Shown here in pieces: positions 12,394-40,554 of a stretch of DNA of 64,000 bases (within the stretch, counting starts at the first letter, position 1; the number at the start of each line of letters is the position of its first letter). The notes under the pieces are model-generated. The model made no database searches, was not told the origin of the DNA, and saw only the letters and a list, made by a program, of their open reading frames with translations. The stretch lies in contig JAJYXR010000003.1 in NCBI GenBank assembly GCA_021801795.1, positions 1-64,000 of the forward strand, read 5' to 3'. Position numbers and translations under genes: made by a program. The stretch is from Actinomycetes bacterium. GTDB taxonomy: Bacteria; Actinomycetota; Acidimicrobiia; Acidimicrobiales; JAJYXR01.

Positions 12394-13091
12394 AGCTCTT
12401 GGACACCCTCCTCGGAAAGACGAAGCCGGTCCAGGCGAATCTCGACGCACTCTTCTCGCTGCCCGCTGCTGCCATTACCCTCGAGACCACCACCGGACTA
12501 GCCCCCAGCGGCAGAGCGGGCGTCTGCTTCAAGCCCCCCGCTGGACAGTCCTTCGAGGACATGCAGCACGATCTCGAGCAGCTCCTCCAGATGCCCGACG
12601 ACGCTGGCACTTCCACGGAGAGCCTGGCTGCGGCACCCCAGACCGCGGCACCCCAGACCGGCTCGGGTACGCCGGAGTCACCTGGAGGCGCTGAATCCCG
12701 AGCGGCTGGGTCGGCCACCATCGAGGTCCGTCACGAGGCCGACGCATATGGGTACCGGTGGATCATCCTGGGGGGAACCGGGATAGACGACCTGGTGACA
12801 CGTGTCCACATGGTCCACTCGTCACTGAGCGACGCTGGCTGGGGTACCCAGCTCCTGTGCTCCGTGGTCGGCTTCGTCCCGGGAGGGGGCGCTGACGACT
12901 CTGCCGTCGATCAGCCTGTCTACCTCATCTATCTGGCGAAGCAGGGCACCTTCTACCCATTCGCACCATCAGGCAAGGAAAAACGCGACGTCGAGCTGGA
13001 GTTGCGGCTGAAGAGCTTCCTGGCCGGAGATCTGGCCATCGAGCCGGACCTCGACCGCTGGTTCCCCATCTGGGACCTACCCATAGCCTGA
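12390..13091 (+). CDS. pspAB: PspA-associated protein PspAB
   Basis: A 233-residue protein, coupled to htpX by an ATGA overlap. The N-terminus MKLLDTLLGKTKPVQANLDALFSLPAAAITLE is the PspAB signature. A variable linker with a duplicated AAPQT follows, then IEVRHEADAYGYRWIILGGTGIDDLVTRVHMV and KEKRDVELELRLKSFLAGDLAIEPDLDRWFPIWDLP. The function is unknown, but it closes the pspA-pspAA-htpX-pspAB operon of actinobacteria. Its 3' 139 bp are overlapped by the convergent DUF6687-like gene. Confidence 0.92.
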   Translation: MKLLDTLLGKTKPVQANLDALFSLPAAAITLETTTGLAPSGRAGVCFKPPAGQSFEDMQHDLEQLLQMPDDAGTSTESLAAAPQTAAPQTGSGTPESPGGAESRAAGSATIEVRHEADAYGYRWIILGGTGIDDLVTRVHMVHSSLSDAGWGTQLLCSVVGFVPGGGADDSAVDQPVYLIYLAKQGTFYPFAPSGKEKRDVELELRLKSFLAGDLAIEPDLDRWFPIWDLPIA

Positions 13092-25249: not shown

Positions 25250-25430
25250 CCTCAGCGGTCTGTGCCTGGGACCGGGCCGCCCGTCGGTTCGTGCCGGCTG
25301 GCCTCAGCGGTCTGTGCCTGGGACCGGGCCGCCCGTCGGTTCGTGCCGGCTGGCCTCAGCGGTCTGTGCCTGGGACCGGGCCGCCCGTCGGTTCGTGCCG
25401 GCTGGCCTCAGCGGTCTGTGCCGAGAACCA
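25250..25430. repeat. 52-bp tandem repeat, 3 full copies plus a diverged copy that is the ltp2 gene end
   Basis: Three near-identical 52-bp units occupy 25250-25405. The next, diverged unit (CCTCAGCGGTCTGTGCC...) contains the final codons and stop of the minus-strand thiolase gene. Read on the minus strand, each copy repeats the CACAGACCGCTGAGG that ends the gene. The tract therefore looks like repeated duplication of the gene's own 3' end. 25131-25249 holds nothing else I can identify. Confidence 0.92.
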
Positions 25431-26598
25431 GGCCGCTCGTCGGCACGCCGGTGCCGGCGGTCACCACCACGTGCTCGAGGGCGGGGATCTGGTTCACCGC
25501 ACTGCCCCGCACCTGACGCACGGCTTCTGCGATCCCGTTCATGCCGTGCAGGTATCCCTCTCCCAGCTGCCCACCGTGAGGGTTCAGCGGGAGCCTGCCA
25601 CCGATCTCTATCGCCCCGTCACGAACGAAGTCCCGAGCCTCTCCCCTGGCACAGAATCCGAGCTCCTCCAGCTGGTAGAGGACGAAGGGGGTGAAGTGGT
25701 CGTAGAGCACCGCGCACTGAACGTCATCTGGCCCGATGCCAGAGGTCTCCCAGAGCTGGCGTGCCACGACGGACATCTCCGGAAGCTCGGTCAGGTCATC
25801 CCTGTAGTAGGAGGTCATCATGTGCTGGTCTGCGCCAGACCCCTGCGCGGCGGCTCTGATGACCGCAGGCGGGTGGCGGAGGTCTCTCGCGCGTTCCAGG
25901 GAGGTGACCACCAGCGCCTGGCCACCGTCGGTCTCCTGGCAGCAGTCGAGCAGCCTGAGTGGCTCCACGATGAACCGGGAGGCCTGATGATCCTGGAGCG
26001 TGATCGGCTTACCGTAGAACCACGCCGCTGGGTTCGTGGAGGCATGTCTGCGATCCGCGACGGCTACCCTGCCGAAGTCCTCGGAGGTGGTCCCGGTGAG
26101 ATGCATGTAGCGCTGCGCGAACATCGCCACCCAGGACGCGGGCGTCAGCAGGCCATAGGGCGCGTACCATGCGAACTGGGCGCTCTCGGCGTTCGGGAGG
26201 GGGGGCAGGCCCTGGACGCCGGCACCGAAGCGGTTGCCGGAGCGCTCGTTGAAGGCCCGGTAGCAGACCACCACCTCGGCTACCCCGCTGGCCACCGCCA
26301 TGGCCGCCTGCTGCACCGTCGCGCAGGCAGCCCCACCGCCGTAGTGGATACGGCTGAAGAAGGTGAGCTCGCCGAGCCCGAGGCTCCGGGCAATCTCTAT
26401 CTCGGGATTGGTGTCGGCAGAGAAGGTGACGAGACCGTCCACATCCCCGGCATCTATGCCAGCGTCATCCAGTGCTGCTGCCACCGCCTCCACCGCCAGC
26501 CTGAGCTCGCTCCTCCCGGACTTCTTCGAGAACTCCGTAGCGCCGATACCGCTGAGCGCCGTGCGCCCCGCGTAGGAATGCCGTCTCTGCGCGCTCAT
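25408..26598 (-). CDS. ltp2: Ltp2-like thiolase-fold aldolase (steroid side-chain degradation)
   Basis: A 396-residue thiolase-superfamily protein of the SCP-x/lipid-transfer type. ALSGIGATEFSKKSGRSELRLAVEAVAAALDDAGIDAGDVDGLV is the standard N-terminus, followed by FSRIHYGGGAACATVQQAAMAVASG. The NPHGGQLGEGYLHGMNGIAEAVRQVRG block near residue 340 is the thiolase C-terminal domain. In Mycobacterium, Ltp2 with the DUF35 part of ChsH2 cleaves the last C3 unit of the cholesterol side chain by retro-aldol reaction. The assignment rests on this order: last gene after chsH1, a 4-bp overlap, and a ChsH2/ACAD/P450 cluster. Confidence 0.82.
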   Translation of the reverse strand: MSAQRRHSYAGRTALSGIGATEFSKKSGRSELRLAVEAVAAALDDAGIDAGDVDGLVTFSADTNPEIEIARSLGLGELTFFSRIHYGGGAACATVQQAAMAVASGVAEVVVCYRAFNERSGNRFGAGVQGLPPLPNAESAQFAWYAPYGLLTPASWVAMFAQRYMHLTGTTSEDFGRVAVADRRHASTNPAAWFYGKPITLQDHQASRFIVEPLRLLDCCQETDGGQALVVTSLERARDLRHPPAVIRAAAQGSGADQHMMTSYYRDDLTELPEMSVVARQLWETSGIGPDDVQCAVLYDHFTPFVLYQLEELGFCARGEARDFVRDGAIEIGGRLPLNPHGGQLGEGYLHGMNGIAEAVRQVRGSAVNQIPALEHVVVTAGTGVPTSGLVLGTDR

Positions 26599-27191
26599 CG
26601 TCCGCCCCCTCGGGGCTCGCCGCCATCCCCCCTGGGCTCGGCGCCATCCCCCCTGGGCTCGGCGCCATCCCCCCGGGGCTCGGCGCCATGGTCGAGGAGC
26701 CTTCTGTCTTCAGTAGCTGGCCGGTCTCCCGCTCCCCCACGGATCGGCAGGGCGACGCGCACGGTGCCGGTCACGTGGTTCCCTATGGAGTTCCTGCCGC
26801 GCACCTCCACATCCACCACTCCCCGACCCTCGTTGCGCTCCGAGGGACCCCCGAGGGAGCTGACCTGGCCGGTGAGCACCATGGTGTCACCTGGATAGTT
26901 CGGAGCACCCAGCCTGATGGCGATCGACTCTATGAGCCCACAGGGTCCGCTCCAGTCGGTCACGAACCTTCCCACGAGGCCGTTCGTGGTCAGGATGTTC
27001 ATGAAGATGTCCGGTGCGCCGCGCTGGCGGGCCAGATCGGGGTCATGGTGGACGTCCTGGTAGTCACGGGTGGCGATAGCACCCGCCACGATCAGACTGC
27101 GGTTCAGCTCCACCTCCAGCTGGGGCAGCGGACTTCCCACGGTGACGTCCTCGTAATGCATGGAGCCGACCTCCTCGGCTGTAGCGCTCAT
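26595..27191 (-). CDS. chsH1: ChsH1-like MaoC enoyl-CoA hydratase subunit
   Basis: About 198 residues from ATG 27191, which overlaps the preceding ACAD stop as ATGA. This is a single hot-dog domain. VAGAIATRDYQDVHHDPDLARQRGAPDIF carries the MaoC Asp/His dyad, and IRLGAPNYPGDTMVLTGQVSSL is the central strand. The last 30 residues are GAEPRGD repeats encoded by a 21-bp repeat. In the M. tuberculosis igr operon, ChsH1 pairs with ChsH2 to hydrate the steroid enoyl-CoA. Here the catalytic dyad is in this subunit, while ChsH2 has Tyr where His would be, consistent with a heteromer. Confidence 0.82.
   Translation of the reverse strand: MSATAEEVGSMHYEDVTVGSPLPQLEVELNRSLIVAGAIATRDYQDVHHDPDLARQRGAPDIFMNILTTNGLVGRFVTDWSGPCGLIESIAIRLGAPNYPGDTMVLTGQVSSLGGPSERNEGRGVVDVEVRGRNSIGNHVTGTVRVALPIRGGAGDRPATEDRRLLDHGAEPRGDGAEPRGDGAEPRGDGGEPRGGGR
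26612..26690 (-). repeat. 21-bp in-frame repeat (GAEPRGD) at the chsH1 3' end
   Basis: Nearly four copies of a 21-bp unit (GCCATCCCCCCTGGGCTCGGC in one copy, plus strand, diverging by one base) extend the ChsH1 tail immediately before its stop, which overlaps ltp2. Confidence 0.92.
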
Positions 27192-28333
27192 CGCCCAGGC
27201 GCTCCGCTCAGCAGATCCCCGAGAGCTGCCAGCTGACCGGCTGGGGAGCCCAGCATCAGCTCTATCTGCTTGGCCCAGAGGAAGTACCGGTGTATCGGGT
27301 AGGAGACATCCGCACCGATCCCGCCGTGGAGGTGCTGGGTCGCGTGGACCACCCGCTGGCCGGCTTCGGAAGCCCACCAGTGTGCTGCCGCCACCGCCGC
27401 CGCGGCATCCCGGCCCGTGTCGATCCGCCAGGCGGCCGACCAGAGCGTGAGGCGCATCGCCTCCACGTCCAGTGATGCGTCGGCAGCCCTCATCAGGGGT
27501 GCCTGGAACGACGAGATGGCACGTCCGAACTGCTGGCGCTCGTTCAGGTAGGCGGCAGTCCTCACCAGAGCCTCCTCGCATACCCCGAGCGCCATAGCAG
27601 CCAGACCCGTCCTGGCACGCAGGAGCAGCCAGTCGAGCACCTCTCTAGCGGTGCCCCGAGCTCCGAGACCATCGGGTGCTCCCAGCAGATCCTCGCTCGT
27701 CACCCGCGCACCGTCTATATGCATGTTCGGGTGCACCTGGCGGTCGGTGCACACCTCGCGCTCCAGCTCCACGGATTCACCGCGGGGGTCCACCAGGAAG
27801 GCCAGGTCTTCTCCCTCGTCGCTGCGCCCGAACGCCACCACCCGGTCAGCCAGGTGGGCCTGGGGGACCGCCCGCGCCGTTCCGGTGATCCGCCAGCAGC
27901 CGCGATCCTCTCTCGCCCTCAGCGGCACGGCCCTCTCGGGGAAGGAGCCCACCTCCGTTATCGCTGCGCTCAGCACCGCATCACCTGATGCCACCGCAGG
28001 CAGCCACCTCTCCTTCGCCGGCTCGGACCCGAAACGCGCCAGCGGCATCGCGCCCAGGACCACCGTCGCCAGCAGCGGTATCGGCGCGACCTGGCGACCC
28101 TGGGCCTGGAGCAGCAGGCAGGTCTCCACCAGGCCGAGCCCCGAACCACCGAAACGCTCCTCCACCGCGAGCCCCAGCAGGTTGGTGCTCGCCAGCTCCG
28201 CCCAGAGGCGCCGGTCGAAGCGATCCTCGGTGGCCTCCACCCCTGCCACCCGCTCGGGGGCCGCGCGGCCACTGAACACCGAGGAGGCAGCCTCCGAGAC
28301 TGCCTCCTGGGCCTCCGTGAAGGTGAAGTCCAT
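27188..28333 (-). CDS. acyl-CoA dehydrogenase, FadE28/ChsE1-like subunit
   Basis: About 381 residues from ATG 28333 (GGAGG eight bases upstream). The fold is standard: MDFTFTEAQEAVSEAASSVF helices, EERFGGSGLGLVETCLLLQ, a short middle beta-domain, and ARTGLAAMALGVCEEAL with FGRAISSFQAPLMRAADASLDVEAMRL. The QRVVHATQHLHGGIGADVSYPIHRYFLWAKQIELMLG tail is the FAD-contacting region. Divergent middle-domain sequence and the partner gene 29395-30585 suggest the non-catalytic half of an alpha2beta2 ACAD, as described for ChsE1-ChsE2. The exact orthology is inferred from synteny. Confidence 0.82.
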   Translation of the reverse strand: MDFTFTEAQEAVSEAASSVFSGRAAPERVAGVEATEDRFDRRLWAELASTNLLGLAVEERFGGSGLGLVETCLLLQAQGRQVAPIPLLATVVLGAMPLARFGSEPAKERWLPAVASGDAVLSAAITEVGSFPERAVPLRAREDRGCWRITGTARAVPQAHLADRVVAFGRSDEGEDLAFLVDPRGESVELEREVCTDRQVHPNMHIDGARVTSEDLLGAPDGLGARGTAREVLDWLLLRARTGLAAMALGVCEEALVRTAAYLNERQQFGRAISSFQAPLMRAADASLDVEAMRLTLWSAAWRIDTGRDAAAAVAAAHWWASEAGQRVVHATQHLHGGIGADVSYPIHRYFLWAKQIELMLGSPAGQLAALGDLLSGAPGR

Positions 28334-28367
28334 CAGGGCACCTCCAGCCACAGCCAGGACAGCGACC

Positions 28368-29384
28368 TCATCGGCCGACCGGCCTGAAGCGAGGAAGGGC
28401 TATCTCCTGGTCGATCATCTCGAAGCCGGCCTCGACCTCCATACCGATCGCGACGTCCGCTGGCTCGACACCGGCCATGTCCGCGACGATCCGCAGGCCC
28501 TCGTGGAGCTCCACCAGGGCCACCACCAGCGGGTAGTCGAAGGCCGGTACCTGGGGGTGGTGGACTACTACGAAGCTGAGCACCCTGCCCCTGGGGGAAA
28601 CCTCCACCGCGTCCCAATCGAGACTCCTGCACTCGGGGCACGCTGGGGCGGGAGGATGGCGCAGCTTCCCGCACGAACCGCAGGACTGGACCAGCAGCCT
28701 TCCTTCCCGTGTCCCCTCGAAGAAGAACGCCGAGTCCTCGGTGATCGCAGGACGCGGTCGCATTGCCCCCACGGCCGACCGAGGGGACTGCCTGGGCCGG
28801 AACTTCAGGATCCTGAAGTGCATGGTGGCCACGGCTTCACCCCTGGCGTCGGTGAAGTCCATGCGGGTGGTCAGAAAGTGCCCTGCACCGAGCGCGGTCT
28901 GCTTCAGCCCGGAGACTGATTCTATGGAGGAGCGAACACTCAGATGGTCCCCCAGGAAGAGGGGCCTCAGGTAATCCTGCTCGCAGTTCGTGGCGACCAC
29001 CGAGGTGAAGCCGGCCTCGTCCAGAAGCGCCATCAGCTCGTCGGTGGGCGAACCGGCCGACTCCCCAGCCGCGCGGGCGCGTTCGAGCTCGAGGCTGGCG
29101 CGATATCCGCGCATGATCCACGCCTGGAGCATGGCCGGCGGGGCGATCACGCCCGGCAGGCCGCATGCCCGGGCGGCCTCCTCGTCCAGGTATACCGGGT
29201 TCTCGTCACCCATGGCCTCGACGAAGTGACGGATCATGGCCTGGTTAACCGGATCGGCTGCAGGAGACGGTTCCCCCGAGGAGCGACCCTGGAAGGAGGA
29301 GAGCAGGTCCTGCAGGTCTTGACCTCCTCCCACGGCTGAAGCCGCGGGATTGCGCCCGCTGGTCCGCTCAGCCCTGCTGCTCAC
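28368..29384 (-). CDS. chsH2: ChsH2-like protein: MaoC domain fused to DUF35 zinc-ribbon/OB domain
   Basis: A 338-residue two-domain protein. The N-terminal hot-dog domain (about residues 40-200) has FVEAMGDENPVYLDEEAARACGLPGVIAPPAML; the usual MaoC His is replaced by Tyr in NPVY. The C-terminal DUF35 domain (about 220-338) has a zinc ribbon with Cys235, Cys238, Cys249 and Cys252, then the OB-fold strands GRVLSFVVVHHP and YPLVVALVEL. This architecture is diagnostic of ChsH2 of steroid side-chain degradation, whose DUF35 part binds Ltp2. It sits between the two ACAD genes. Confidence 0.88.
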   Translation of the reverse strand: MSSRAERTSGRNPAASAVGGGQDLQDLLSSFQGRSSGEPSPAADPVNQAMIRHFVEAMGDENPVYLDEEAARACGLPGVIAPPAMLQAWIMRGYRASLELERARAAGESAGSPTDELMALLDEAGFTSVVATNCEQDYLRPLFLGDHLSVRSSIESVSGLKQTALGAGHFLTTRMDFTDARGEAVATMHFRILKFRPRQSPRSAVGAMRPRPAITEDSAFFFEGTREGRLLVQSCGSCGKLRHPPAPACPECRSLDWDAVEVSPRGRVLSFVVVHHPQVPAFDYPLVVALVELHEGLRIVADMAGVEPADVAIGMEVEAGFEMIDQEIALPRFRPVGR

Positions 29385-29394
29385 GGCTCCCTCC

Positions 29395-30585
29395 TCACCG
29401 GTCTATCCGCCGCCTGGCTCCGGCCATGCCGAGCCCGAGGGTGGCGACGATCTCACGCTGGACCTCGTTCACCCCCCCGCCGAAGGTGTTCACCTGGGCC
29501 TGCCTCGCCGCCTGCTCGAGCCGCCCACCGAGCACCGCGCCGGGCGATCCCGGCACCAGGTAGCCCTGGGCCCCGACGATCCCGAGCAGGCGGTGGTAGA
29601 CGTCGATGGTCCGCTCGGTCCCGAACACCTTCACGGCCGAAGAGTCTGCAGGACCTATGGTGTCCTTCGCCACCGCGACGGCCATCCGCCAGTTCATGAG
29701 GTACATGGCCTCGACCTCTGCCCAGGTGATGGCCAGCTCCGACTTCACCCATGGCACCTCGGCCAGAGTGCGACCGTCGCCAGCCCTCTGCGATGCTGCC
29801 CAGCTGGCCACCTCCTCCCACATGAGCCGGGCGAATCCACTCCAGGCTGCGAGGCCGATGCGCTCGTGGTTCAACTGGGTGGTGATCATCTTCCATCCAG
29901 CGTTCTCCTCGCCGATGCGGTAGCCGGCTGCCACGCGCACGTCGTCGTAGTAGGTGGCAGTGGTCGTAAGACCCCCGACGGTGGATATCGGGCTCCAGGT
30001 GAAGCCCGGCGCGCTGGTCGGGACGCAGAGGATCGAGATGCCCTGGTGCTTCGGTGCCCCCGGATCGGTACGGGCCGCCAGCCAGATGTAGTCGGCCTGG
30101 TCGGCGCCGCTGGTGAAGACCTTCGAGCCGTTCACCACGTAGTCGTCGCCGTCGCGCACTGCGACAGTAGCCAGCGAGGCGAGGTCGGTGCCAGCCTCCG
30201 GCTCGGTGTAGCCGATCGCGAAGTTTATCTCGCCCGCGAGGATGCCGGGCAGGAAGAACTCCTTCTGCTCGTCAGAACCGAAACGCATGATGGTAGGCCC
30301 AACGGTGTTCACCGTCACGAAGGGGAATGGCGCCGAGGCCCTGCGGGTCTCGTCGAAGAAGATGAACTGGTCCGTAGCGGGCCGGCCCTGCCCGCCGTGC
30401 TCCACGGGCCACCCGATGCCCAACCAGCCGTCCTTGCCGATCCGCCTGACTACCTGCCGGAAAACCTCGCCCCCCTCGCCTTCGTCCCGCAGTGCGATCC
30501 GCACCTCGTCGGTCAGGAGGTCCGAGTAGTAGCCCCGTAGCTCCTCGCGAAGGGCCATCTGCTCGGGGGTCTCCTCCAGGTACAT
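29395..30585 (-). CDS. acyl-CoA dehydrogenase, FadE29/ChsE2-like subunit
   Basis: A 396-residue protein, first gene of the side-chain operon. It begins MYLEETPEQMALREELRGYYSDLLTDE, then GWLGIGWPVEHGGQGRPATDQFIFFDE, FAIGYTEPEAGTDLASLATVA (FAD/acyl-CoA site), and ITTQLNHERIGLAAW. The C-terminus VNTFGGGVNEVQREIVATLGLGM is typical of FadE26/FadE29-type subunits. It pairs with the ACAD at 27188-28333. The start ATG lies only 9 bp past a KstR-type palindrome and has no visible ribosome binding site, so the message may be leaderless. Confidence 0.86.
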   Translation of the reverse strand: MYLEETPEQMALREELRGYYSDLLTDEVRIALRDEGEGGEVFRQVVRRIGKDGWLGIGWPVEHGGQGRPATDQFIFFDETRRASAPFPFVTVNTVGPTIMRFGSDEQKEFFLPGILAGEINFAIGYTEPEAGTDLASLATVAVRDGDDYVVNGSKVFTSGADQADYIWLAARTDPGAPKHQGISILCVPTSAPGFTWSPISTVGGLTTTATYYDDVRVAAGYRIGEENAGWKMITTQLNHERIGLAAWSGFARLMWEEVASWAASQRAGDGRTLAEVPWVKSELAITWAEVEAMYLMNWRMAVAVAKDTIGPADSSAVKVFGTERTIDVYHRLLGIVGAQGYLVPGSPGAVLGGRLEQAARQAQVNTFGGGVNEVQREIVATLGLGMAGARRRIDR

Positions 30586-30594
30586 CCATCATAG

Positions 30595-30608
30595 TGTAAC
30601 GCGTTCTA
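30595..30608. promoter_or_regulatory. KstR-type operator, exact match to TnnAACnnGTTnnA
   Basis: TGTAACGCGTTCTA fits every defined position of the published KstR motif. It lies 9 bp upstream of the ACAD start and would cover the promoter -10 (TACACT on the minus strand). Confidence 0.75.
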
Positions 30609-30674
30609 ATAATGATCGGCAACCAGGTGGGGGCTGTCGCGAAATTCGCGCTGGCCTTCGGCGTCACGGCGGCT

Positions 30675-30697
30675 TATGATAAGTGGAACACGTTCTC
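30675..30697 (+). promoter_or_regulatory. probable -10 box and imperfect KstR-type operator ahead of the P450
   Basis: TATGAT (30675-30680) is followed three bases later by TGGAACACGTTCTC (30684-30697), which matches the KstR motif at all but the last defined base. This is the expected layout for a repressor site next to a start point. No good -35 is seen. Confidence 0.6.
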
Positions 30698-30819
30698 GTC
30701 AGCGCAGGCTAGCTGGGGCTGAGCGTGGAGAAGTGCTCGATGCCCAGCAGGCGAGGCTCGCCTCGCCGCCTACAGGCACGGGGGCGCCGCGGCGCCGGGG
30801 AGACACGAGGAGACATGGC

Positions 30820-32046
30820 ATGGTCCAGCTGAGCGACATCGACCTCACCGACTCGAGGAACTTCGTGGCACGGGTTCCCCACGACTGGTTCGCCTACCTA
30901 CGCCGACACCACCCCGTGTTCTGGCACGAGGAGACCGGCGGCTCGGGCTTCTGGTGCGTCACCAGATATGCAGACTGTGTCGCGGTCAACCGGGATGCCG
31001 AGCACTTCTCCTCCCACCTCGGCGGCGTGCTCATCTGGGACCAGGAGCCGGAGCTTCTGGAGCAGCAGAGGCTCATGATGCTGAACATGGACCCACCGCT
31101 GCACACCCGCTACCGCCGCCTGGTTAACAAGGGCTTCACGCCCAGGATGATCGCCCAGCTCGAAGGGCGGATCCACGCAGCCACCGACCGCATCATCGAC
31201 CAGGTATGCGAGAAGGGGGAGTGCGACTTCGTGACGGAGATCTCAGCCGAGCTGCCCCTGATAGTCATCGCCGAGCTGCTCGGCGTTCCAGACGAAGACC
31301 GCTACCAGATGTTCGACTGGTCCAACCGCATGGTCGGCAACGAGGACCCCGAGTACCAGATATCGCCCGAGGCCGCCACCGAGGCCGCCATGGAGCTCTA
31401 CGCCTACGCGGCAGACCTCTTCGCGAAGAAGCGTGCGAACCCCCATGAGGACCTGATGAGCATCCTCACCCAGGTCGAGATCGACGGCGAGCAGCTCTCG
31501 GAACTGGAGCTGGAGCTGTTCTTCCTACTCCTCACCGTCGCCGGGAACGAGACCACCAGGAACCTCATATCGGGAGCCATGCATGCCTTCTTCGAGCATC
31601 CCGACCAGTGGCAGCGCCTCATAGCGGATCGCTCCCTCCTGCCGGGCGCGGTGGAGGAGATGCTGCGCTTCGTCTCTCCTGTGATGGAGTTCCGGCGCCA
31701 GGCGGTCTCGGACTGCCAGATCGGATCGGCAGAGGTGAGAGCAGGTGACAAGGTGGTCTTCTGGCACGTCTCCGCGAACCGTGACGAAGAGGTCTTCGCT
31801 GACCCCGACTCCTTCGACATCTCCCGTAACCCGAACCCCCACATGGCCTTCGGTGCCGGCGGTCCCCACTTCTGCCTAGGGGCTAACCTCGCGCGCATGG
31901 AGATAAGGGTCATGTTCGAGCACCTCCTGGACCGGCTCCCCGACATCCACCAGGCCGCACCCGTCCAGCGTCTGCAGTCGAACTTCATAAACGGCGTAAA
32001 GCACCTGCCGGTCGCCTTCAGCCCTGCAGCTGTCCGGGCGAGCTGA
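30820..32046 (+). CDS. CYP125/CYP142-like cytochrome P450 (steroid C26/27 monooxygenase candidate)
   Basis: About 408 residues from ATG 30820, with an AGGAG site. P450 landmarks are all present: I-helix LLTVAGNETTRN, EMLRF (ExxR), and the heme loop FGAGGPHFCLGANLAR with Cys near residue 352. GFWCVTRYADCVAVNRDAEHFSSHLGGVLIWD and the end LQSNFINGVKHLPVAF resemble mycobacterial CYP125/142, which oxidise the sterol side-chain terminus to a carboxylate. Divergent placement from the igr-like operon across KstR-type sites supports this role. The upstream leader has two GC-rich hairpins (30751-30766 and 30783-30796). Confidence 0.85.
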   Translation: MVQLSDIDLTDSRNFVARVPHDWFAYLRRHHPVFWHEETGGSGFWCVTRYADCVAVNRDAEHFSSHLGGVLIWDQEPELLEQQRLMMLNMDPPLHTRYRRLVNKGFTPRMIAQLEGRIHAATDRIIDQVCEKGECDFVTEISAELPLIVIAELLGVPDEDRYQMFDWSNRMVGNEDPEYQISPEAATEAAMELYAYAADLFAKKRANPHEDLMSILTQVEIDGEQLSELELELFFLLLTVAGNETTRNLISGAMHAFFEHPDQWQRLIADRSLLPGAVEEMLRFVSPVMEFRRQAVSDCQIGSAEVRAGDKVVFWHVSANRDEEVFADPDSFDISRNPNPHMAFGAGGPHFCLGANLARMEIRVMFEHLLDRLPDIHQAAPVQRLQSNFINGVKHLPVAFSPAAVRAS

Positions 32047-32177: not shown

Positions 32178-33074
32178 GTGCGATTCCACCAGGCCGTCGC
32201 GTTCCTTCCCACATCGGAGATCGTCGCCCTTGCGGGGGCCTCGGAGGAGCTCGGCTACGACGGGGTCTACCTCTCCGACCATCTCTTCAACGCCCGGGAT
32301 CTGCGAAGCCGGTATGCCTATTCGACCTCTCCCGACGGATCGCCCTACTGGGCAAAGGAGACCGAGTGGCCCGACCCCATGGTGCTCATCTCCCATCTCG
32401 CTGCCCTCACCAGCGGCATCGTCTTCACGACCGGCATCTACGTGGCGCCAGTGCGCGACCTGGTAACGGTGGCGAAGACCGTGGGCACCGCTGCCGTCCT
32501 GTCCGCGAACAGGGTCAGGCTGGGCGTGGGAGTCGGCTGGTGCGCCGAGGAGTACGCCGCTACCGGTCAGGACTTCCATACCCGCGGCAGGCGACTGGAC
32601 GAGATGATCGTCGCGCTGCGACGCCTATGGAGCGGTGGCTGGGTGGAGCACCACGGCACCTACTACAACATACCCGCCTGCCAGATGAACCCTGCCCCGA
32701 CCCAGCCAGTGCCCATATACGGCGGCGGCGACTCCGATGCCGCGCTCCGGCGGGCCGCAGAGCTCTGCGACGGGTGGCTGACCACCGGAGCCTGCACACC
32801 GGAGGAAGCCTCCGGCCAGCTTGCCCGTGTCCGCCAGGCTCTCGCACGCGCAGGTCGCCTGGGATCGCCATTCGACACGTACCTGGCCCTGAAGGTCACC
32901 CCGTCGGTGGACGTCTACAAGGGCTTCGCCGACGAGGGCGTGACTGACATGCTCTGCGCACCCTGGATGTCAGCCAGTGTCTCGCCAGAGGACTCCCCCG
33001 AGTCCCGACTGAAGAAGCGCATGGAGGCCTCCGAGCGCTTCGCGGAGGAGATCCTCGAGAAGATGGACCGCTAG
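32178..33074 (+). CDS. LLM-class F420-dependent oxidoreductase
   Basis: A 298-residue protein starting at GTG. MRFHQAVAFLPTSEIVALAGASEELGYDGVYLSDHLF and FTTGIYVAPVRDLVTVAKTVGTAAVLSANRVRLGVGVGWCAEEY match the compact F420-LLM family (TIGR03619-type). PVPIYGGGDSDAALRRAAELCDGWL is the phosphate-binding barrel end. It lies in the same direction after the P450 and abuts the next LLM gene with no gap. A steroid-related F420 reaction is possible, but the substrate is unproven. Confidence 0.86.
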   Translation: MRFHQAVAFLPTSEIVALAGASEELGYDGVYLSDHLFNARDLRSRYAYSTSPDGSPYWAKETEWPDPMVLISHLAALTSGIVFTTGIYVAPVRDLVTVAKTVGTAAVLSANRVRLGVGVGWCAEEYAATGQDFHTRGRRLDEMIVALRRLWSGGWVEHHGTYYNIPACQMNPAPTQPVPIYGGGDSDAALRRAAELCDGWLTTGACTPEEASGQLARVRQALARAGRLGSPFDTYLALKVTPSVDVYKGFADEGVTDMLCAPWMSASVSPEDSPESRLKKRMEASERFAEEILEKMDR

Positions 33075-34109
33075 ATGAAGGATCTGAAGCTCGGACTCCA
33101 GCTCGGTTACTGGGGTGCGTCTCCGCCACCCGACGCGGCTGGGCTGGTCGAGGAGGCCGAGAGACTCGGATTCGACTCCGTCTGGACTGCCGAGGCATAC
33201 GGCTCTGACGCCCTGACACCGCTGGCCTGGTGGGGATCTCGCACCGAGCGCCTGAGGCTCGGCACTGCGCTCTGCCAGCTGTCCGCGAGAACCCCGACGG
33301 CGATGGCGATGGCAGCCCTTACCATGGACCACCTCTCGGGTGGCCGGTTCGTGCTCGGGCTCGGGGTGTCAGGTCCCCAGGTGGTGGAGGGCTGGTACGG
33401 TCAGCCCTTTTCGAAGCCCCTGGCCCGCACCCGTGAGTACCTGTCGATCATCAGGAGCGTCCTGGCCCGCTCGGAGCCGGTAAGGAGCCCGGGGCCTCAC
33501 TATCCCCTTCCCTTCCCCGGCGGGACCGGCCTCGGCAAGCCGCTGAAGCCCATAGTTCACCCGCTGCGCGCGGACATCCCCATAATCCTCGGCGCCGAGG
33601 GCCCGAAGAACGTGGCGCTGGCAGCAGAGATAGCAGACGGCTGGTTCCCCATCTTCTTCTCCCCTGCCCACATGGGCGAGTTCGAGTCCGCGCTGGCCGA
33701 GGGGTTCGCGATGCCATCGGCCAGACGCCGGCGCGAGGACTTCGAGGTGATCGCCTTGTGCCCAGTGGTCATCGACGACGACATCGAGCGTGCCGCGGAC
33801 TCCTTTCGTCCATATCTGGCCCTCTACATAGGGGGCATGGGCGCCAGGAAGATGAACTTCCACTTCGACGTCTTCTGCAGGATGGGCTTCGAGGCAGAGG
33901 CGAGGAAGATACAGGATCTCTACCTGGCAGGTCACCGGACCGAGGCTGCCGCAGCAGTGCCCCGTGGGATGGTGGAGGGCATATCCCTCATCGGGCCGGT
34001 CGCGAAGATCCGCTCCGACCTCGAAGCCTGGCGTTCCTCCATAGCCACCACGCTGCTGGTCTCGGGAGATGTGACCGTGCTGCGGACAATGGCCGAGCTG
34101 GTTGGCTGA
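33075..34109 (+). CDS. LLM-class F420-dependent oxidoreductase (Rv3520c-like)
   Basis: A 344-residue protein whose ATG directly follows the preceding TAG. KLGLQLGYWGASPPPDAAGLVEEAERLGFDSVWTAEAYGSDALTPLAWWG is close in style to the F420-dependent enzyme Rv3520c, a member of the mycobacterial KstR regulon (from memory, not searched). LGLGVSGPQVVEGWYGQPFSKPLARTREYLSIIR and PIILGAEGPKNVALAAEIADGWFPIFFSP complete the barrel. The steroid context supports a catabolic role, but the reaction is unknown. Confidence 0.86.
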   Translation: MKDLKLGLQLGYWGASPPPDAAGLVEEAERLGFDSVWTAEAYGSDALTPLAWWGSRTERLRLGTALCQLSARTPTAMAMAALTMDHLSGGRFVLGLGVSGPQVVEGWYGQPFSKPLARTREYLSIIRSVLARSEPVRSPGPHYPLPFPGGTGLGKPLKPIVHPLRADIPIILGAEGPKNVALAAEIADGWFPIFFSPAHMGEFESALAEGFAMPSARRRREDFEVIALCPVVIDDDIERAADSFRPYLALYIGGMGARKMNFHFDVFCRMGFEAEARKIQDLYLAGHRTEAAAAVPRGMVEGISLIGPVAKIRSDLEAWRSSIATTLLVSGDVTVLRTMAELVG

Positions 34110-34294
34110 AGGAGCCTCCCATCCTGCGAATGGCCGGGCGCATCCACCATCTGAGGCGATGGCACTGTTAGCCTTTTCGAGGTTTCTCAAGTCTTCTCCA
34201 ATGAAGCTCCATGGGGCATTTTCAGCCCGAACCGGGCGTTTTGACTCATAGAGGTGCCCAGGGCAGGTCAGGCACCAGAAGGGGGGTGAAGAGC

Positions 34295-35173
34295 GTGACA
34301 TTGTCAGAGGTCCTACGCCTGCCCCACATCCCATCGGTGAACCTTGGTTTCGTCGAGCGGGTCAGCCTGCCGGGCCGTGGCAGGTGCCGGGTGCGCCTGG
34401 TCCCACCGCCCGCGCCTGGCAGCCCCGTGGTGACCCTCCTGCATGGATGGACTGCCACCGCCGACCTGAACTTCGCCACCGTGATGGCCCCGCTGTCGGA
34501 ACGCTTCGGGATCGTGGCCCCCGACATGAGAGGCCACGGAGGCGGTATCCGCTCGCACGAGCGCTTCAGTCTCGAATCCTGCGCTGACGATGTCGCGGAG
34601 CTGCTCGAGGTGCTCGACGTCGGACCCAGCATCCTCCTCGGCTACTCCATGGGAGGCCCCATCGCCCTGCTGGCCGCCAGGCGCCACCCGGAGGCAGTCC
34701 GGGGATTGGTGCTCTGCGCCACCGCTGCGCGCCTTGGCAGGAGCAACGCAGGCCGCCTGGCACTCGGAGCCCTCGGCGCCGTCGGCATGGCTGCCCAGTC
34801 GGCCATGCTCCGCGTCGTCCACCAGGGCGCGCTACCCCGGGAGGTCATAAGGCACCTGCCGACCCCCCTAGGTCATGACCTCACCCAGGTGGCCGAGGTC
34901 GGAACCGAGCTTGCCCGCTTCGACGCCCGGCCCTGGCTGGACGAGATCCAGATGCCGACCGCCCTGGTGCTGACCCGTAACGACCACGCGGTCCCCCCGG
35001 CAGATCAGCAGGTACTCGCCCAGGGCCTGGCTGGATGCAGGCTCTTCGAGGTCGAGGGGGATCACGACGTCTGTCTCAGCCCGAACCCGGTGTTCGAGTC
35101 GACCGTCTGCGCAGCGGTCACCGAGGTCGCCCTCAGCTCGAGGCGATCAGCGCACCGAGCCTCAGCAGGCTAG
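34295..35173 (+). CDS. alpha/beta-fold hydrolase
   Basis: About 292 residues from GTG 34295, chosen for the AAGGGGGG eight bases upstream. VVTLLHGWTATADLNFATV is the oxyanion region, FGIVAPDMRGHGGG the next strand, ILLGYSMGGPIALLAARRHP the nucleophile elbow with Ser, LVLTRNDHAVPPADQQ the acid strand, and FEVEGDHDV the His. It could act on a steroid-derived thioester or ester. Its 3' end overlaps the convergent ACAD by 41 bp. Confidence 0.84.
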   Translation: MTLSEVLRLPHIPSVNLGFVERVSLPGRGRCRVRLVPPPAPGSPVVTLLHGWTATADLNFATVMAPLSERFGIVAPDMRGHGGGIRSHERFSLESCADDVAELLEVLDVGPSILLGYSMGGPIALLAARRHPEAVRGLVLCATAARLGRSNAGRLALGALGAVGMAAQSAMLRVVHQGALPREVIRHLPTPLGHDLTQVAEVGTELARFDARPWLDEIQMPTALVLTRNDHAVPPADQQVLAQGLAGCRLFEVEGDHDVCLSPNPVFESTVCAAVTEVALSSRRSAHRASAG

Positions 35174-36263
35174 GGGTAGCCCCGCCAAGCGTAGGCGCGA
35201 GCTGCTTGGTGATCAGGTAGTAGCGATGCAGTGGGTAGTCCCGGTCCACCCCCACACCACCGTGTAGGTGCTGGGCTCCATGGACCACCCGCTGGGCACC
35301 GTCGTCGGCCCAGAACTTCGCCACTGCCAGAGCCTCGGCTGCAGGCAGTTCCTCCGCCAGGCGCCATGCTGCCTGCCAGGCGCTCAGGCGCACTGCTTCG
35401 GTGTCCACGTACGCGTCTGCCGCACGCTGGCCGACTGCCTGGAATGTGGCGATGGGTTTCCCGAACTGCTCGCGGGTGGAGGTGTAGGCCGCCGTGAGGG
35501 CGAGGGCCGCCTGGCAGCAGCCCGACTGCAGGACGCACATGGCAGCCATCACCCGCTCGAGCACCCAGGCCAGGGCATCGGGGGAGTCGGTCACCAGGGA
35601 CTCCGGGCCCACCCGCGTGTCCAGCTCGAACCGTGCCTGGGGGTAACCGGTGACGGTGGGCTGGGGCTCCCGGCTCAGCCCCTCCGCTGCGGTGTCCAGG
35701 ACGAAGATGGCCACACCAGACCTGCCTGCCTCCTCGATGCGCGCAGGCAGGACCACCGCGTCTGCATCCATGCCGGCCGGTACGCACGACAGGCTCCCCC
35801 GGAGGAACCACCCGTCCGCGTCCCGCAGGGCGCGTGTCGACCGGCTCACCGCTGCCACCAGATCGGACAGGTCGGACCCGAGCGCGCTGAAGCCGCCGGT
35901 GAGCAGAGTCGAGCCCTCGGTGACCCCTGGCAGCCAGCGCCGCCTCTGGTCGGGACTCCCGAAGCGCTCCAGTACCATTCCCCCGGCCAGGGTGCCGAGC
36001 AACGGGTCCACAGCAGCCCCAGCCCGGCCTGCCTCCTCCAGGACTATGCAGCTCTCCACGAAACCCCGCCCGGCCCCGCCCACGTCCTCGCCTAGCCCCA
36101 CTGCCAGCAGGCCCGCTGAGGCAAGCTCCTGCCAGAGCCTACGGTCGAACCACTCCCTCGCCAGCTCCCGCTCACGGAGCCTCGCGGGGGCTGCCAGGTC
36201 CTCGAAGATCCGGCGTGCGAGCGCCCTCAGATCCTCCTGGTCCTCGCCGAACGAGAAATCCAT
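35133..36263 (-). CDS. acyl-CoA dehydrogenase, FadE27/FadE28-type subunit
   Basis: A 376-residue protein. AGGAGG precedes the ATG. MDFSFGEDQEDLRALARRIFEDL starts the helical domain; GLGEDVGGAGRGFVESCIVLEE and a shortened, divergent middle domain follow. The C-terminal half has STREQFGKPIATFQAVGQRAADAYVDTEAVRL and QRVVHGAQHLHGGVGVDRDYPLHRYYLITKQ. It closely parallels the ACAD at 27188-28333 and probably pairs with the upstream ACAD, forming a second heteromeric enzyme like ChsE4-ChsE5. Confidence 0.84.
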   Translation of the reverse strand: MDFSFGEDQEDLRALARRIFEDLAAPARLRERELAREWFDRRLWQELASAGLLAVGLGEDVGGAGRGFVESCIVLEEAGRAGAAVDPLLGTLAGGMVLERFGSPDQRRRWLPGVTEGSTLLTGGFSALGSDLSDLVAAVSRSTRALRDADGWFLRGSLSCVPAGMDADAVVLPARIEEAGRSGVAIFVLDTAAEGLSREPQPTVTGYPQARFELDTRVGPESLVTDSPDALAWVLERVMAAMCVLQSGCCQAALALTAAYTSTREQFGKPIATFQAVGQRAADAYVDTEAVRLSAWQAAWRLAEELPAAEALAVAKFWADDGAQRVVHGAQHLHGGVGVDRDYPLHRYYLITKQLAPTLGGATPSLLRLGALIASS

Positions 36264-36368
36264 CGCTCCTACCTCCTCTTGCTGGCTGGTGATCGGGGAA
36301 TCTTCACTGAAATCTGCCGAGCGCAGGACGAGACCAGTTCGCGACCTCGGCCCCCGCCCCTCGGCGCC

Positions 36369-37544
36369 TCAGCGAAGCGACCTCGGCATGCCGAGGCCGA
36401 ATATGGCTATCAGGTCGCGCTGTATCTCGTTGGTGCCGCCGCCGAAGGTAAGTATCAGCATGCTGCGCGCGTACATCTCCAGGCGCCCCGAGATGACCGA
36501 GTCGGGTGCTCCCCTGGCCAGGTATCCCGCCTGTCCTACCACCTCGGTGAGCAGCCTGAATGCCTCCATGTAGAACTCCGTGCCGAAGACCTTGATGGTG
36601 GAGGCGTCCGCCACGTCGAGCTCGCCCCTGGTGGCGCTCCAGGCCACCTTCCAGTTTATGAGGCGGAGGAACTCGAGCTTCGCAGCCACCTTCGCCAGGT
36701 GGATACGGACCCACTCCTGGTCGATGACGCGACGACCGTCCTCGAGCCTGGTCTCCTTCGCCCAGCTCACGGTGTCGGCCAGCGCGCGCTCGATGATCCC
36801 AGGTGAGCACAGGGTGACCCTCTCATGGTTCAGCTGGTTCGTGATGAGCGTCCAGCCGTTGTCGAGGCCCCCTACCACGTTCGTGAGCGGCACCCTCACG
36901 CCCTCGAAGAAGGTGGAGTTTATGTTGTGCTCGCCCAGCAGCTGCATGGGCACCACACGGATGCCAGGTGAGTCCATCGGGACTATGACGATCGATATCC
37001 CCCGGTGCTTGGGAGCGTCGGGGTTCGTCCGCAGAGCCAGCCAGCAGTAGTCCGCGTCCCCCGCCAGGCTGGTGAACACCTTCGCGGCGTCGATCACGAG
37101 CTCGTCGCCGTCCACCACGGCCTTCGACGTGAGCGAGGCCAGGTCGGTGCCCGCATTCGGCTCCGTGTAGCCGATGCAGAACGAGATGTCGCCCGCGAGG
37201 ATACGCGGCAGGTAGAAGTCCTTCTGCTCCTCGGTGCCGAAGTCCATGATGGTGGGGCCGACGGTGTTGATCGTGAGCATCGGCACCGGCGCGCCAGAGC
37301 GCATCGACTCGTCGAAGAAGATGAACTGCTCCATGGCCGAGCGACCCTGCCCCCCGTACTCGCTTGGCCAGCCGATCCCCAGCCAGCCGTCTGCGGCCAT
37401 CTGCTTCACCACCCGCCTCACGCAGGGTCCTACCCCACCGCTGCGGGCCAGCTCCTCCTCCACCTCAGGCGTCAGCAGACCGGCGTAGTACTCGCGCAGC
37501 TCGGCCCGCAGTGCCTCCTGTTCCTCGCTGTAGCCGATCTCCAC
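36369..37544 (-). CDS. acyl-CoA dehydrogenase, FadE26/FadE29-type subunit
   Basis: About 391 residues from GTG 37544 (AAGGGGGCGAGG upstream); an extra 14 codons are open upstream. VEIGYSEEQEALRAELREYYAGLLTPEVEEEL, GWLGIGWPSEYGGQGRSAMEQFIFFDE, FCIGYTEPNAGTDLASLTSKA, LITNQLNHERVTLCSP and LILTFGGGTNEIQRDLIAIFGLGMPRSLR mark it as the catalytic-type partner, paralogous to the ACAD at 29395-30585. A KstR-type palindrome lies 57 bp upstream. It probably acts on an earlier side-chain intermediate, as ChsE4 does. Confidence 0.86.
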   Translation of the reverse strand: MEIGYSEEQEALRAELREYYAGLLTPEVEEELARSGGVGPCVRRVVKQMAADGWLGIGWPSEYGGQGRSAMEQFIFFDESMRSGAPVPMLTINTVGPTIMDFGTEEQKDFYLPRILAGDISFCIGYTEPNAGTDLASLTSKAVVDGDELVIDAAKVFTSLAGDADYCWLALRTNPDAPKHRGISIVIVPMDSPGIRVVPMQLLGEHNINSTFFEGVRVPLTNVVGGLDNGWTLITNQLNHERVTLCSPGIIERALADTVSWAKETRLEDGRRVIDQEWVRIHLAKVAAKLEFLRLINWKVAWSATRGELDVADASTIKVFGTEFYMEAFRLLTEVVGQAGYLARGAPDSVISGRLEMYARSMLILTFGGGTNEIQRDLIAIFGLGMPRSLR

Positions 37545-37601
37545 TACCTCGCCCCCTTCTGGCGGCACCGCACCCGGCTGGCGCATGCCACGAGCTGCTC
37601 C

Positions 37602-37615
37602 TAGAACACGTTACA
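37602..37615. promoter_or_regulatory. KstR-type operator, exact match to TnnAACnnGTTnnA
   Basis: TAGAACACGTTACA fits all defined positions. It lies in the divergent gap between two ACAD genes, which could place both under the same repressor as the igr-like operon. Confidence 0.72.
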
Positions 37616-37665
37616 GCTTTGCACAGCTGGTCACCGGGTGCCAGCCCGAGGGAGCTCATTCAGCA

Positions 37666-37770
37666 GGTGGTCCGGACGCAGGTGGTCCGGACGCAGGTGG
37701 TCCGGACGCAGGTGGCCGATGTACAGGTGGCCGAGGTACAGGTGGTCAGGACGCAGGTGGCCGATGTACC
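37666..37770 (+). repeat. 15-bp tandem repeat, 7 units of two subtypes
   Basis: Three copies of GGTGGTCCGGACGCA and four related units (GGTGGCCGATGTACA type) lie between the KstR-type operator and the start of the downstream ACAD. The frame stays open through them as VVRTQ/VADVQ, but translation of this part is doubtful. Confidence 0.93.
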
Positions 37771-37777
37771 CTCGGGC

Positions 37778-39010
37778 GTGGACCTTTCCTACCCCCCCGA
37801 GGCAGAGGCCTTCCGCAGCGAGGTGCGCGGGTGGCTCCTCGCGAACCTACCGGAAGGATGGGGCCAGCCCGGCTTCTCCATGACCAGGCAGGAGCGCCAG
37901 CGCTTCAACGAGGAGTGGGTGGCAAAGCTCCGGGAGGGCCGGTGGCTGTGTGCCTCCTGGCCAAGCGAGTACGGCGGTCGGGGCCTGTCGGTGATCGAGC
38001 AGGTGGTGCTCACCGAGGAGTTCGCCGCGCTGGACGCGCCGATGCGTGCGGACTTCTTCGGCGACACCCTGGTCGGGCCCACCATCCTGAAGTGGGGCAC
38101 CGAGGACCAGAAGCGCAGGTTCATCCCACGCATACTCGACGGCAGCATCAGCTGGTGCCAGGGATTCTCCGAGCCCGACGCGGGGAGCGACCTCGCGTCC
38201 TTGAAGACCCGGGCCGAGCTCGACGGTGACGAGTGGGTGATAAACGGCCAGAAGGTCTGGACCACCCAGGCCCAGTATGCCGAGTACATCTTCCTGCTGG
38301 CCCGCACCAACCCAGAGGCCCCGAAGCACCAGGGCATCTCCTACCTGCTCGTCGAGATGCGCCAGCCGGGGATCGAGGTGCGGCCCATACGCCAGATCGA
38401 CGGCACCGCCGAGTTCAACGAGGTCTTCTTCACCAACGCCCGCTGCCCGAAGGACAACGTCGTCGGCGGCGTCGACAACGGCTGGAAGGTGGCGATGACC
38501 ACCCTGGGATTCGAGCGGGGAGCCTCCTCCACCACGGGGCACCGGCGGTTCATGAAGGAGCTCGACCTGGTCATCTCCGAGGCCAGGCGCACCGGCAGGA
38601 TCAGCGACCCCTTGGTGCGCCAGGGGCTCGCCAGAGCCTGGGGGATCGTGAAGATAATGCAGGTAAACGGCTACAGGAGCCTTACCGACACCCTGAACTC
38701 CACCCACCAGGCAGCCGCCCTGGGCGCAGTTCACAAGATGCTCTGGTCCGAGTACCACCAGCGCGTGATGGAGCTAGCCGTGAACATGCTGGGGCTCGAA
38801 GGCCAGATCCTCACCGGCTCTGGGGCCACCGAAGGTGAGCTGACCGGTGGGATAGGAAGGCGCGGGAGTGCCGACTACCCGGTAAGCGAGCTCCAGGCCT
38901 CCTTCTTCTTCTCCCGCTCCGAGACCATCTGGGGTGGCGCTGCAGAGATACAGCGGAACATCGTCGGGGAGAGGGTGCTCGGCCTGCCGAAGGAGCCGCG
39001 ACCGTCCTGA
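37778..39010 (+). CDS. acyl-CoA dehydrogenase
   Basis: About 410 residues if started at GTG 37778, ahead of DLSYPPEAEAFRSEVRGWLLANLPEGWG. In-frame GTG codons inside the upstream repeat make the start uncertain. LCASWPSEYGGRGLSVIEQVVLTEE, CQGFSEPDAGSDLASLKTRAELDGDEWVINGQKVWTTQAQYAEYIFLLART and TLGFERGASSTTGHRRF are full-length ACAD motifs; FFFSRSETIWGGAAEIQRNIVGERVLGLPKEP is the canonical C-terminus. It resembles the homotetrameric type rather than the heteromeric pairs. It is divergent from the FadE26-type gene across a KstR-type site. Confidence 0.87.
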   Translation: MDLSYPPEAEAFRSEVRGWLLANLPEGWGQPGFSMTRQERQRFNEEWVAKLREGRWLCASWPSEYGGRGLSVIEQVVLTEEFAALDAPMRADFFGDTLVGPTILKWGTEDQKRRFIPRILDGSISWCQGFSEPDAGSDLASLKTRAELDGDEWVINGQKVWTTQAQYAEYIFLLARTNPEAPKHQGISYLLVEMRQPGIEVRPIRQIDGTAEFNEVFFTNARCPKDNVVGGVDNGWKVAMTTLGFERGASSTTGHRRFMKELDLVISEARRTGRISDPLVRQGLARAWGIVKIMQVNGYRSLTDTLNSTHQAAALGAVHKMLWSEYHQRVMELAVNMLGLEGQILTGSGATEGELTGGIGRRGSADYPVSELQASFFFSRSETIWGGAAEIQRNIVGERVLGLPKEPRPS

Positions 39011-39510: not shown

Positions 39511-40554
39511 TCAACCGCCGAGTAGCCGTCGCACGTCGGTGGCCACCGTGGCGTCGTCCAGTGGCATCGCGGTGCGAACGTCCAGAGGCTGGTGGCCACC
39601 TTCCAGCGCCACCACTGCCGTGCCGATGGCCAGGAACTCGATCACCTGGCTGCCCCAGATGTGGGCGTGCTCGTCGATCCGCACTCCCACCACCCCTTCG
39701 GCGCCGGCATCCTCGGCCTCCTTCTGCATCCGGCCCATGGCCAGCTCGCGTGACTCGTAGAGGGCCTCCGTCACGTTCACCAGCTCGGTGTTGGCCGTCA
39801 CGTTACTCCACCACCTGGCTACCGACTGGCGAGCCACGTGGTACACGCAGACCCCCATCACCATCTCCACCGGAGCGAAGCCCGCGCGCTCGAGCAGGTA
39901 GAGCTGCTGGCCGCTCAGGTCGCTCGTAAAGGGGCGGCGCTCGTGACCATCGCGGCGCCGTCTCCTGGTGCCAGACGACGCACCGGGATCGGCCCGGCGC
40001 ACGACCGCGGTCCCCATGGCGAAGAACTCCATGTCGCGTCCCCGTCCCTCGGCACCGCGCATCTCGAGCTCCACGCCGGCCACACCGTCTGCACCGAGCG
40101 ACTGGGCCTGGTCCAGGAGCCGGTTCATCGCCAGCGAGCGCGCCAGGTGGAGCGCGCTGGAGAGTTCCGTCAGCTCAGTGCTGGTCGACATCGGGGCATA
40201 CCTGCCGAAGATGGAGGGTCGGTAGACCGCGCTGCCGGTGACCAGCCCACAGGCGTCATAGCCTGCCTCGTCGAGCACGATGGCCTCGTCGACGCTCAGA
40301 TCCGACGACACCGCGCGGCTCGGCGCCCCGGATCCTGCACCCCGGGCAGACCTCAGGTGCTCAATGGCCAGATCAGCGTCGGCGGACAGGTCTTCTCGCC
40401 TCCGGCTCCCTGCCGGGCTGCCGCCAGCCCCAGACCCACCGGCCCCAGACCCGCTGTCCCCCGATCTGCTGTCCCCCGATCTGCTGTCCCCCGATCTGCC
40501 GTGCCCAGACCCACCGTGCCCAGACGCCGATCCGGACCCAGGACCCGCGCTCAC
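39511..40554 (-). CDS. double YbjQ (heavy-metal-binding-like) domain protein, third of three
   Basis: A 347-residue protein. The N-terminal 50 residues are Gly/Ser-rich with GDSRS-type repeats. Two YbjQ/UPF0145-type domains follow: DEAGYDACGLVTGSAVYRP with ALHLARSLAMNRLLDQAQSLGADGVAGVELEM and FFAMGTAVV; then LERAGFAPVEMVMGVCVYHV with ALYESRELAMGRMQKEAEDAGAEGVVGVRIDEHAHIWG and FLAIGTAVV. YbjQ folds as a pentameric beta/alpha barrel; the metal-binding role is a database label without firm proof. The gene overlaps its upstream paralogue as ATGA. Confidence 0.85.
   Translation of the reverse strand: MSAGPGSGSASGHGGSGHGRSGDSRSGDSRSGDSGSGAGGSGAGGSPAGSRRREDLSADADLAIEHLRSARGAGSGAPSRAVSSDLSVDEAIVLDEAGYDACGLVTGSAVYRPSIFGRYAPMSTSTELTELSSALHLARSLAMNRLLDQAQSLGADGVAGVELEMRGAEGRGRDMEFFAMGTAVVRRADPGASSGTRRRRRDGHERRPFTSDLSGQQLYLLERAGFAPVEMVMGVCVYHVARQSVARWWSNVTANTELVNVTEALYESRELAMGRMQKEAEDAGAEGVVGVRIDEHAHIWGSQVIEFLAIGTAVVALEGGHQPLDVRTAMPLDDATVATDVRRLLGG
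40445..40525 (-). repeat. 15-bp in-frame repeat (GDSRS), about 3 copies plus degenerate flanks
   Basis: CTGCTGTCCCCCGAT units (plus strand) encode the Gly/Asp/Ser-rich N-terminus of the third YbjQ protein. Confidence 0.88.

Follow-up and report, generated by a model that had tools for sequence, protein, structure and literature searches.

The closest described counterparts of the locus examined here, a cas/igr-type steroid side-chain operon in a 64,000-nucleotide stretch of an Acidimicrobiales genome (contig JAJYXR010000003.1, positions 1 to 64,000; hereafter the window), come from three actinobacteria. In Rhodococcus jostii RHA1, the cholate C3 side-chain genes casL-casM-casN-casO-casP, with consecutive tags RS28440-RS28460, encode an acyl-CoA dehydrogenase (ACAD), a hydratase, a second ACAD, a second hydratase and an aldolase (PMC8399759; also PMC12502768), matching the window in all five functions and in their order. 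Thermomonospora curvata, which grows on cholate and not on cholesterol (PMC4810484), supplies the closest structures for the window Ltp2, the OB domain of ChsH2 and both ACADs (Ltp2-ChsH2 and Tcur3481-Tcur3483, PDB 6ok1 and 6wy8); its tags Tcur3481 and Tcur3483 alone imply one gene between the ACADs. The igr locus of Mycobacterium tuberculosis (Rv3540c-Rv3545c) has orthologous enzymes, CYP125 and a KstR operator as in the window, but in the order chsE1-chsE2-chsH2-chsH1-ltp2 and with a co-directional cyp125. The mycobacterial KstR and KstR2 regulons likewise resemble the window and its genome in combining a KstR palindrome at side-chain promoters with a separate set of C/D-ring genes.

With a probability of about 0.78, the sequence data point to a KstR-type-regulated operon for steroid side-chain degradation that feeds a C/D-ring module, in a genome from which the known A/B-ring module is absent. 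The operon is of a known kind and its gene order is already known. The operon's combination with C/D-ring genes in the absence of A/B-ring genes, seen in much of an order, is new as far as the open-access papers searched go; we found no description there of side-chain and C/D-ring modules lacking the A/B-ring module in Acidimicrobiia.

The side-chain operon and its gene order

A first-pass annotation of this DNA had described a minus-strand operon of ltp2, chsH1, ACAD, chsH2 and ACAD with a divergent CYP125-like P450, in an actinobacterium that was possibly not a mycobacterium. All six genes lie where they had been placed, and the nearest relatives are metagenome-assembled genomes (MAGs) of Acidimicrobiales.

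25408-26598, minus strand: Ltp2-type steroid C3-side-chain retro-aldolase, CasP-like (NF005892, 689 bits against a cut-off of 469)
26595-27191, minus strand: ChsH1-type MaoC hydratase subunit, CasO-like (PDB 4wnb_B / 4w78_B, E 3e-34)
27188-28351, minus strand: ACAD of beta type without the catalytic Glu, FadE28/ChsE1/CasN type (best PDB match 6wy8_A, Tcur3481; alignment)
28368-29384, minus strand: ChsH2, CasM-like, with MaoC-like, zinc-ribbon and OB domains (PF13452, PF12172, PF01796)
29395-30585, minus strand: ACAD of alpha type with the catalytic Glu, FadE29/ChsE2/CasL type (PDB 6wy8_B, Tcur3483, and 4x28_A; NHER motif; tree)
30820-32046, plus strand: CYP125-like cytochrome P450 (open reading frame opens at 30676; PDB matches and comparison with mycobacterial CYP125)

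The operon spans 25408-30585 of the minus strand, with the P450 divergent from it. From the promoter to the distal end the intergenic gaps are 10, 16, -4 and -4 bp; both negative values are ATGA overlaps, one between the ACAD stop and the ChsH1 start and one between ChsH1 and Ltp2. The genes thus form one translationally coupled operon, in which ChsH1 most likely starts at 27191. Because the catalytic Glu (NHER) is found in the promoter-nearest ACAD and is missing from the inner one, the order from the promoter is chsE2-type, chsH2, chsE1-type, chsH1, ltp2. The complete C3 module (ChsE1, ChsE2, ChsH1, ChsH2 and Ltp2) is thus contained in one operon, and the presence of the catalytic Glu in only one ACAD subunit is, judging from sequence, what would be expected of an alpha2beta2 enzyme. 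Ltp2 surpasses the cut-off of the curated model by 220 bits and has T. curvata Ltp2 (6ok1_A, 621 bits) as its best PDB match, while ChsH2 matches 4wnb_A, 4w78_A and 6ok1_B. After the T. curvata pair, the next-closest solved relative of the two ACADs is PDB 4x28, the heteromeric M. tuberculosis ChsE4-ChsE5. The RDYQDVHHD motif of ChsH1 is common to the window protein and its mycobacterial homologue in the alignment; the C-terminus of the window protein (26595-26700) ends in a repetitive DGAEPRG-like tail that the mycobacterial homologue does not have.

By homology with characterised enzymes, the operon is predicted to remove the last three carbons of the steroid side chain. The CYP125-like P450 and a FadE26-like ACAD pair encoded nearby would start the attack on a sterol-type side chain, after which the alpha/beta ACAD pair would dehydrogenate the CoA ester of the C3 (propionyl) side chain, ChsH1-ChsH2 would hydrate the product, and Ltp2, docked on the OB domain of ChsH2, would release propionyl-CoA and a 17-ketone by retro-aldol cleavage; the dehydrogenation, hydration and retro-aldol steps are modelled on characterised homologues (PMC12329534; PMC12502768). 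The 17-ketone would then enter the complete C/D-ring (HIP) module, whose genes lie in other parts of the genome, rings A and B being either opened by unrecognised enzymes or absent from the substrate. The presence of KstR sites alongside the P450 and the FadE26-like pair makes a sterol-type side chain a better candidate for the substrate than a bile acid, although the C3 genes themselves are cas-like.

The first-pass annotation had interpreted the gene order as a rearranged igr locus. Gene order was typed by tblastn in a set made up of 80 named loci, 20 stretches from an even sample of the phylum and 20 from the same order; in this set, whose named loci had been chosen for similarity to the window, the interleaved order of the window (ACAD-ChsH2-ACAD-ChsH1-aldolase, as in casLMNOP) occurs in ~83 of 110 loci, including loci from Binatota, Myxococcota and Gammaproteobacteria. 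The M. tuberculosis order (cyp125-chsE1-chsE2-chsH2-chsH1-ltp2, all co-directional) is not that of the window; it is found in ~10 of the 110 and, within the phylum sample, only in one family, f38 (Mycobacteriaceae/Nocardiaceae). In the maximum-likelihood tree of Ltp2 the loci with this order form one clade (support 100/91), and the window protein falls inside an 11-row Acidimicrobiales clade (100/99). The tree of the ACAD alpha subunit similarly sets the mycobacterial FadE29 clade apart from the interleaved-order clade that contains the window together with related Rhodococcus and Nocardia loci. Both locus types are carried by Nocardia (L113, L122) and by another f38 genome (G096: L123, L130). 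It is therefore extremely improbable that the order arose in this lineage by rearrangement from the M. tuberculosis order: the two orders do differ as had been described, but synteny and both trees speak against that derivation, and we reject it. Judged by how widely each order occurs, and with the Ltp2 tree midpoint-rooted, it is the M. tuberculosis order that looks derived; usually taken as the reference, igr is here the exception. In both trees the M. tuberculosis igr falls in a separate clade, and the clade membership of the window proteins supports the steroid reading.

The ChsH2 fusion of MaoC and OB domains with four zinc cysteines is present as described, but the four cysteines do not single out the igr locus of M. 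tuberculosis, because the four f38 ChsH2 in the alignment lack them. The four zinc-ribbon cysteines are lost in four f38 proteins (rows L018, L021, L023 and L025 of alignment A1) and largely retained in the other ChsH2 sequences of the alignment. In three loci, L130 (the second locus of G096), L254 (G418) and L257 (G590), ChsH2 matches the MaoC and OB domains separately, which suggests split genes; these loci form one Ltp2 clade (100/100), and G418 and G590 belong to the same order as the window.

KstR-type operators and the C/D-ring module

The KstR operator motif is TnnAACnnGTTnnA (PMC1995591). The window contains two strict matches where 0.11 would be expected, and these are the only two on the whole 184-kb contig (C40), both of them at ACAD promoters. 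On its P450 side, the divergent promoter also has a site with one mismatch.

30595-30608, no strand assigned: KstR-type operator TGTAACGCGTTCTA, 10 bp upstream of the gene at 29395-30585, in the promoter region shared with the divergent P450
30684-30697, no strand assigned: one-mismatch KstR-type site TGGAACACGTTCTC, P450 side of the divergent promoter; also in relatives L243 and L239
37602-37615, no strand assigned: KstR-type operator TAGAACACGTTACA, 16 bp upstream of the gene at 36369-37586, divergent from a third ACAD

The position of the site at the side-chain operon is conserved in relatives, and KstR homologues (34%) adjoin the side-chain locus in two of them (L245, L250). The operators tie the locus to steroid metabolism and are consistent with regulation by a KstR-like repressor. 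KstR-type palindromes also stand directly upstream of the same operon outside Actinomycetota, in Candidatus Binatota (L066) and Myxococcota (L068). At the contig end, a further KstR-like site, GAGAACATGTTCTA (C40:182557-182570), separates a divergent short-chain dehydrogenase/reductase (SDR) from a CoA ligase of FadD type and is a probable additional member of the regulon.

The C/D-ring set is complete, comprising FadD3, FadE30, IpdF, EchA20, IpdA, IpdB, IpdC and FadA6, as compared with mycobacterial reference genes that were named by their order within the KstR/KstR2 region of an f38 genome. FadE30 (58%), IpdF (65%) and FadD3 (52%) are encoded on the same contig as the operon, ~120 kb away. 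EchA20, IpdA, IpdB, IpdC, an Rv3549c-like SDR, FadA6 and two FadE genes (FadE31/32-like) are on contig 16. The steroid side-chain function that had been proposed is accordingly supported by homology to characterised enzymes, by the KstR operators and by these C/D-ring genes.

In mycobacteria the KstR2 motif is CAAG-nn-CTTG, of which neither C40 nor the C/D-ring stretch has a copy; the C/D-ring promoters here carry instead the inverted repeat TCTGA-N7-TCAGA. Four copies occur in the contig-16 stretch (reached in 0 of 200 shuffles), at L183 positions 802-818, 4906-4922, 6260-6276 and 12688-12704. The repeat is also placed at C40 positions 151282 and 154187 and in relatives L185, L187 and L262. 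One-mismatch copies lie near FadD3, a count equalled in 18 of 200 shuffles, and the 64-kb window has no copy. The repeat probably marks a second, KstR2-like regulon as in mycobacteria, with a different operator. Uncharacterised thiolase/DUF35, FadD and P450 clusters were seen on C2, C39 and C32.

Side-chain and C/D-ring genes without known A/B-ring genes

The first-pass annotation had looked to steroid ring-degradation genes elsewhere in the genome, an expectation borne out for rings C and D and not for the canonical genes of rings A and B. Homology and profile searches of the genome detected no homologue of KshA, KstD, HsaC or HsaA, so that the 9,10-seco pathway, which RHA1 has in full, is not represented; no Rieske oxygenase was detected either, the only Rieske proteins being a bc1-like one and a small ferredoxin. 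Across the order (298 genomes for HsaC, Ltp2 and IpdA; 23 for HsaA; 12 for KstD and KshA), Ltp2 occurs in 62 genomes at E of at most 1e-150, and 59 of these 62 also have IpdA (Fisher p 1e-25, in a test that ignores the shared ancestry of the genomes). An HsaC-like protein is present in only 9 of the 59 at E of at most 1e-50, or 11 at 1e-15. Since the 50 two-module genomes without HsaC have a mean completeness of 91%, assembly gaps cannot explain the pattern. The profiles work in this order, as is seen from G399, a member with a full hsa cluster (HsaA, C, D, F and G). In this clade, the modules for the side chain and for rings C and D thus seem to go together in the absence of a known A/B-ring module. 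Steroid-degrader surveys keyed on KshA or HsaC would overlook this whole Acidimicrobiales group, and the coupling of the two modules without the middle points either to a hitherto unknown opening of rings A and B or to specialised cross-feeders.

One explanation, to which we give somewhat less than even odds, is that a large part of Acidimicrobiales (48-50 of the 59 two-module genomes) degrades sterols by means of the known side-chain and C/D-ring modules and opens rings A and B by an undescribed route non-homologous to KstD, Ksh and HsaABCD. We looked for replacement enzymes in the conserved neighbourhood and rejected this source of candidates: apart from the core genes, the 16 side-chain loci compared have no conserved neighbours other than the P450 and two luciferase-like (LLM) oxidoreductases.

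It is possible, if somewhat doubtful, that these organisms are partial degraders that take up side-chain-bearing C/D fragments already lacking rings A and B (HIP-type acids), or other intermediates, from other degraders and would therefore do without an A/B module. Ltp2 is tightly coupled to IpdA and not to HsaC across the order, side-chain and ring degradation can proceed simultaneously in Actinobacteria (PMC4810484), and bile acids offer documented cases of cross-feeding and of intermediates outside the cell (PMC8399759). On the other hand, the P450 of CYP125 type and the FadE26-like pair suggest that degradation begins at an intact sterol side chain, and fragments of this type would be scarce leak products.

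That canonical A/B-ring genes are present but escaped detection, owing to gaps in the MAG or to extreme divergence, is unlikely. The genome is 92% complete, which leaves room for them, and KshA is the weakest negative, as its query has no match in G399 either, despite HsaA, C, D, F and G there. Against this stand the 48-50 of 59 genomes without HsaC, the HsaC and HsaA profiles, which include Acidimicrobiales sequences and detect distant relatives, and the lack of Rieske oxygenases of any kind. Much less probable still is a non-steroid CoA-ester pathway, for example for methyl-branched acids or another terpenoid, that uses related enzymes: the ACAD and thiolase families are broad and the substrate is known only by inference, but the Ltp2 score, the full gene set, the KstR operators and the C/D-ring module occur together.

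Several points weigh against a KstR-regulated sterol operon that feeds the C/D-ring module in a genome devoid of known A/B-ring genes. The reconstructed pathway covers the entry by CYP125 and the C3 cycle and leaves a gap between the two, where FadD and the thiolase FadA5 would act; no KstR homologue was found on C40 or the other stretches examined, no genome-wide search having been made; the incompleteness of the MAG bears on every absence; and lacking homologues do not equal lacking function.

The P450 and the wider locus

The P450 scores highest in the PDB against CYP125MRCA (564 bits), followed by CYP125A1 (352), CYP124 (324) and CYP142 (283), and has 41% identity to mycobacterial CYP125; with CYP125 as the closest family and identity near the ~40% level, its assignment to this family is borderline. 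Its start is probably 30820 and not 30676, since relatives start there and the one-mismatch KstR site would otherwise be intragenic. Compared with RHA1 cas, the window operon additionally has this divergent P450 and two LLM oxidoreductases, which adjoin the operon in 11 of the 16 Acidimicrobiales loci compared and are the only conserved neighbours left unexplained.

32178-33074, plus strand: luciferase-like F420-type oxidoreductase, TIGR03619 family (NCBIfam match)
33075-34109, plus strand: luciferase-like F420-type oxidoreductase, Rv3520c family (TIGR03559, 468 bits against a cut-off of 335), 59% to a mycobacterial gene at the sterol locus
34211-35173, plus strand: alpha/beta hydrolase (PF00561)
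35133-36263, minus strand: Glu-less subunit of a second ACAD pair (Pfam, alignment)
36369-37586, minus strand: Glu-bearing subunit of the second ACAD pair (in the tree with FadE26/ChsE4; alignment)
37778-39010, plus strand: third ACAD, divergent from the second pair (open reading frame opens at 37364; homology from ~37778)

FadE26/ChsE4 is an enzyme of the first sterol side-chain cycle. The Glu-bearing subunit of the second pair groups with it in the ACAD tree with support of 93/93, which is below the level that we starred. Because of this grouping and the KstR operator at the second pair, the second ACAD group (35133-39010) belongs to the locus of the operon, which reaches ~39010. Beyond it, the window contains three tandem genes at 39511-42409, each of which has two stretches that match YbjQ-type domains (PF01906), and at 43215-44156 an AurF-like diiron oxygenase (PF11583).

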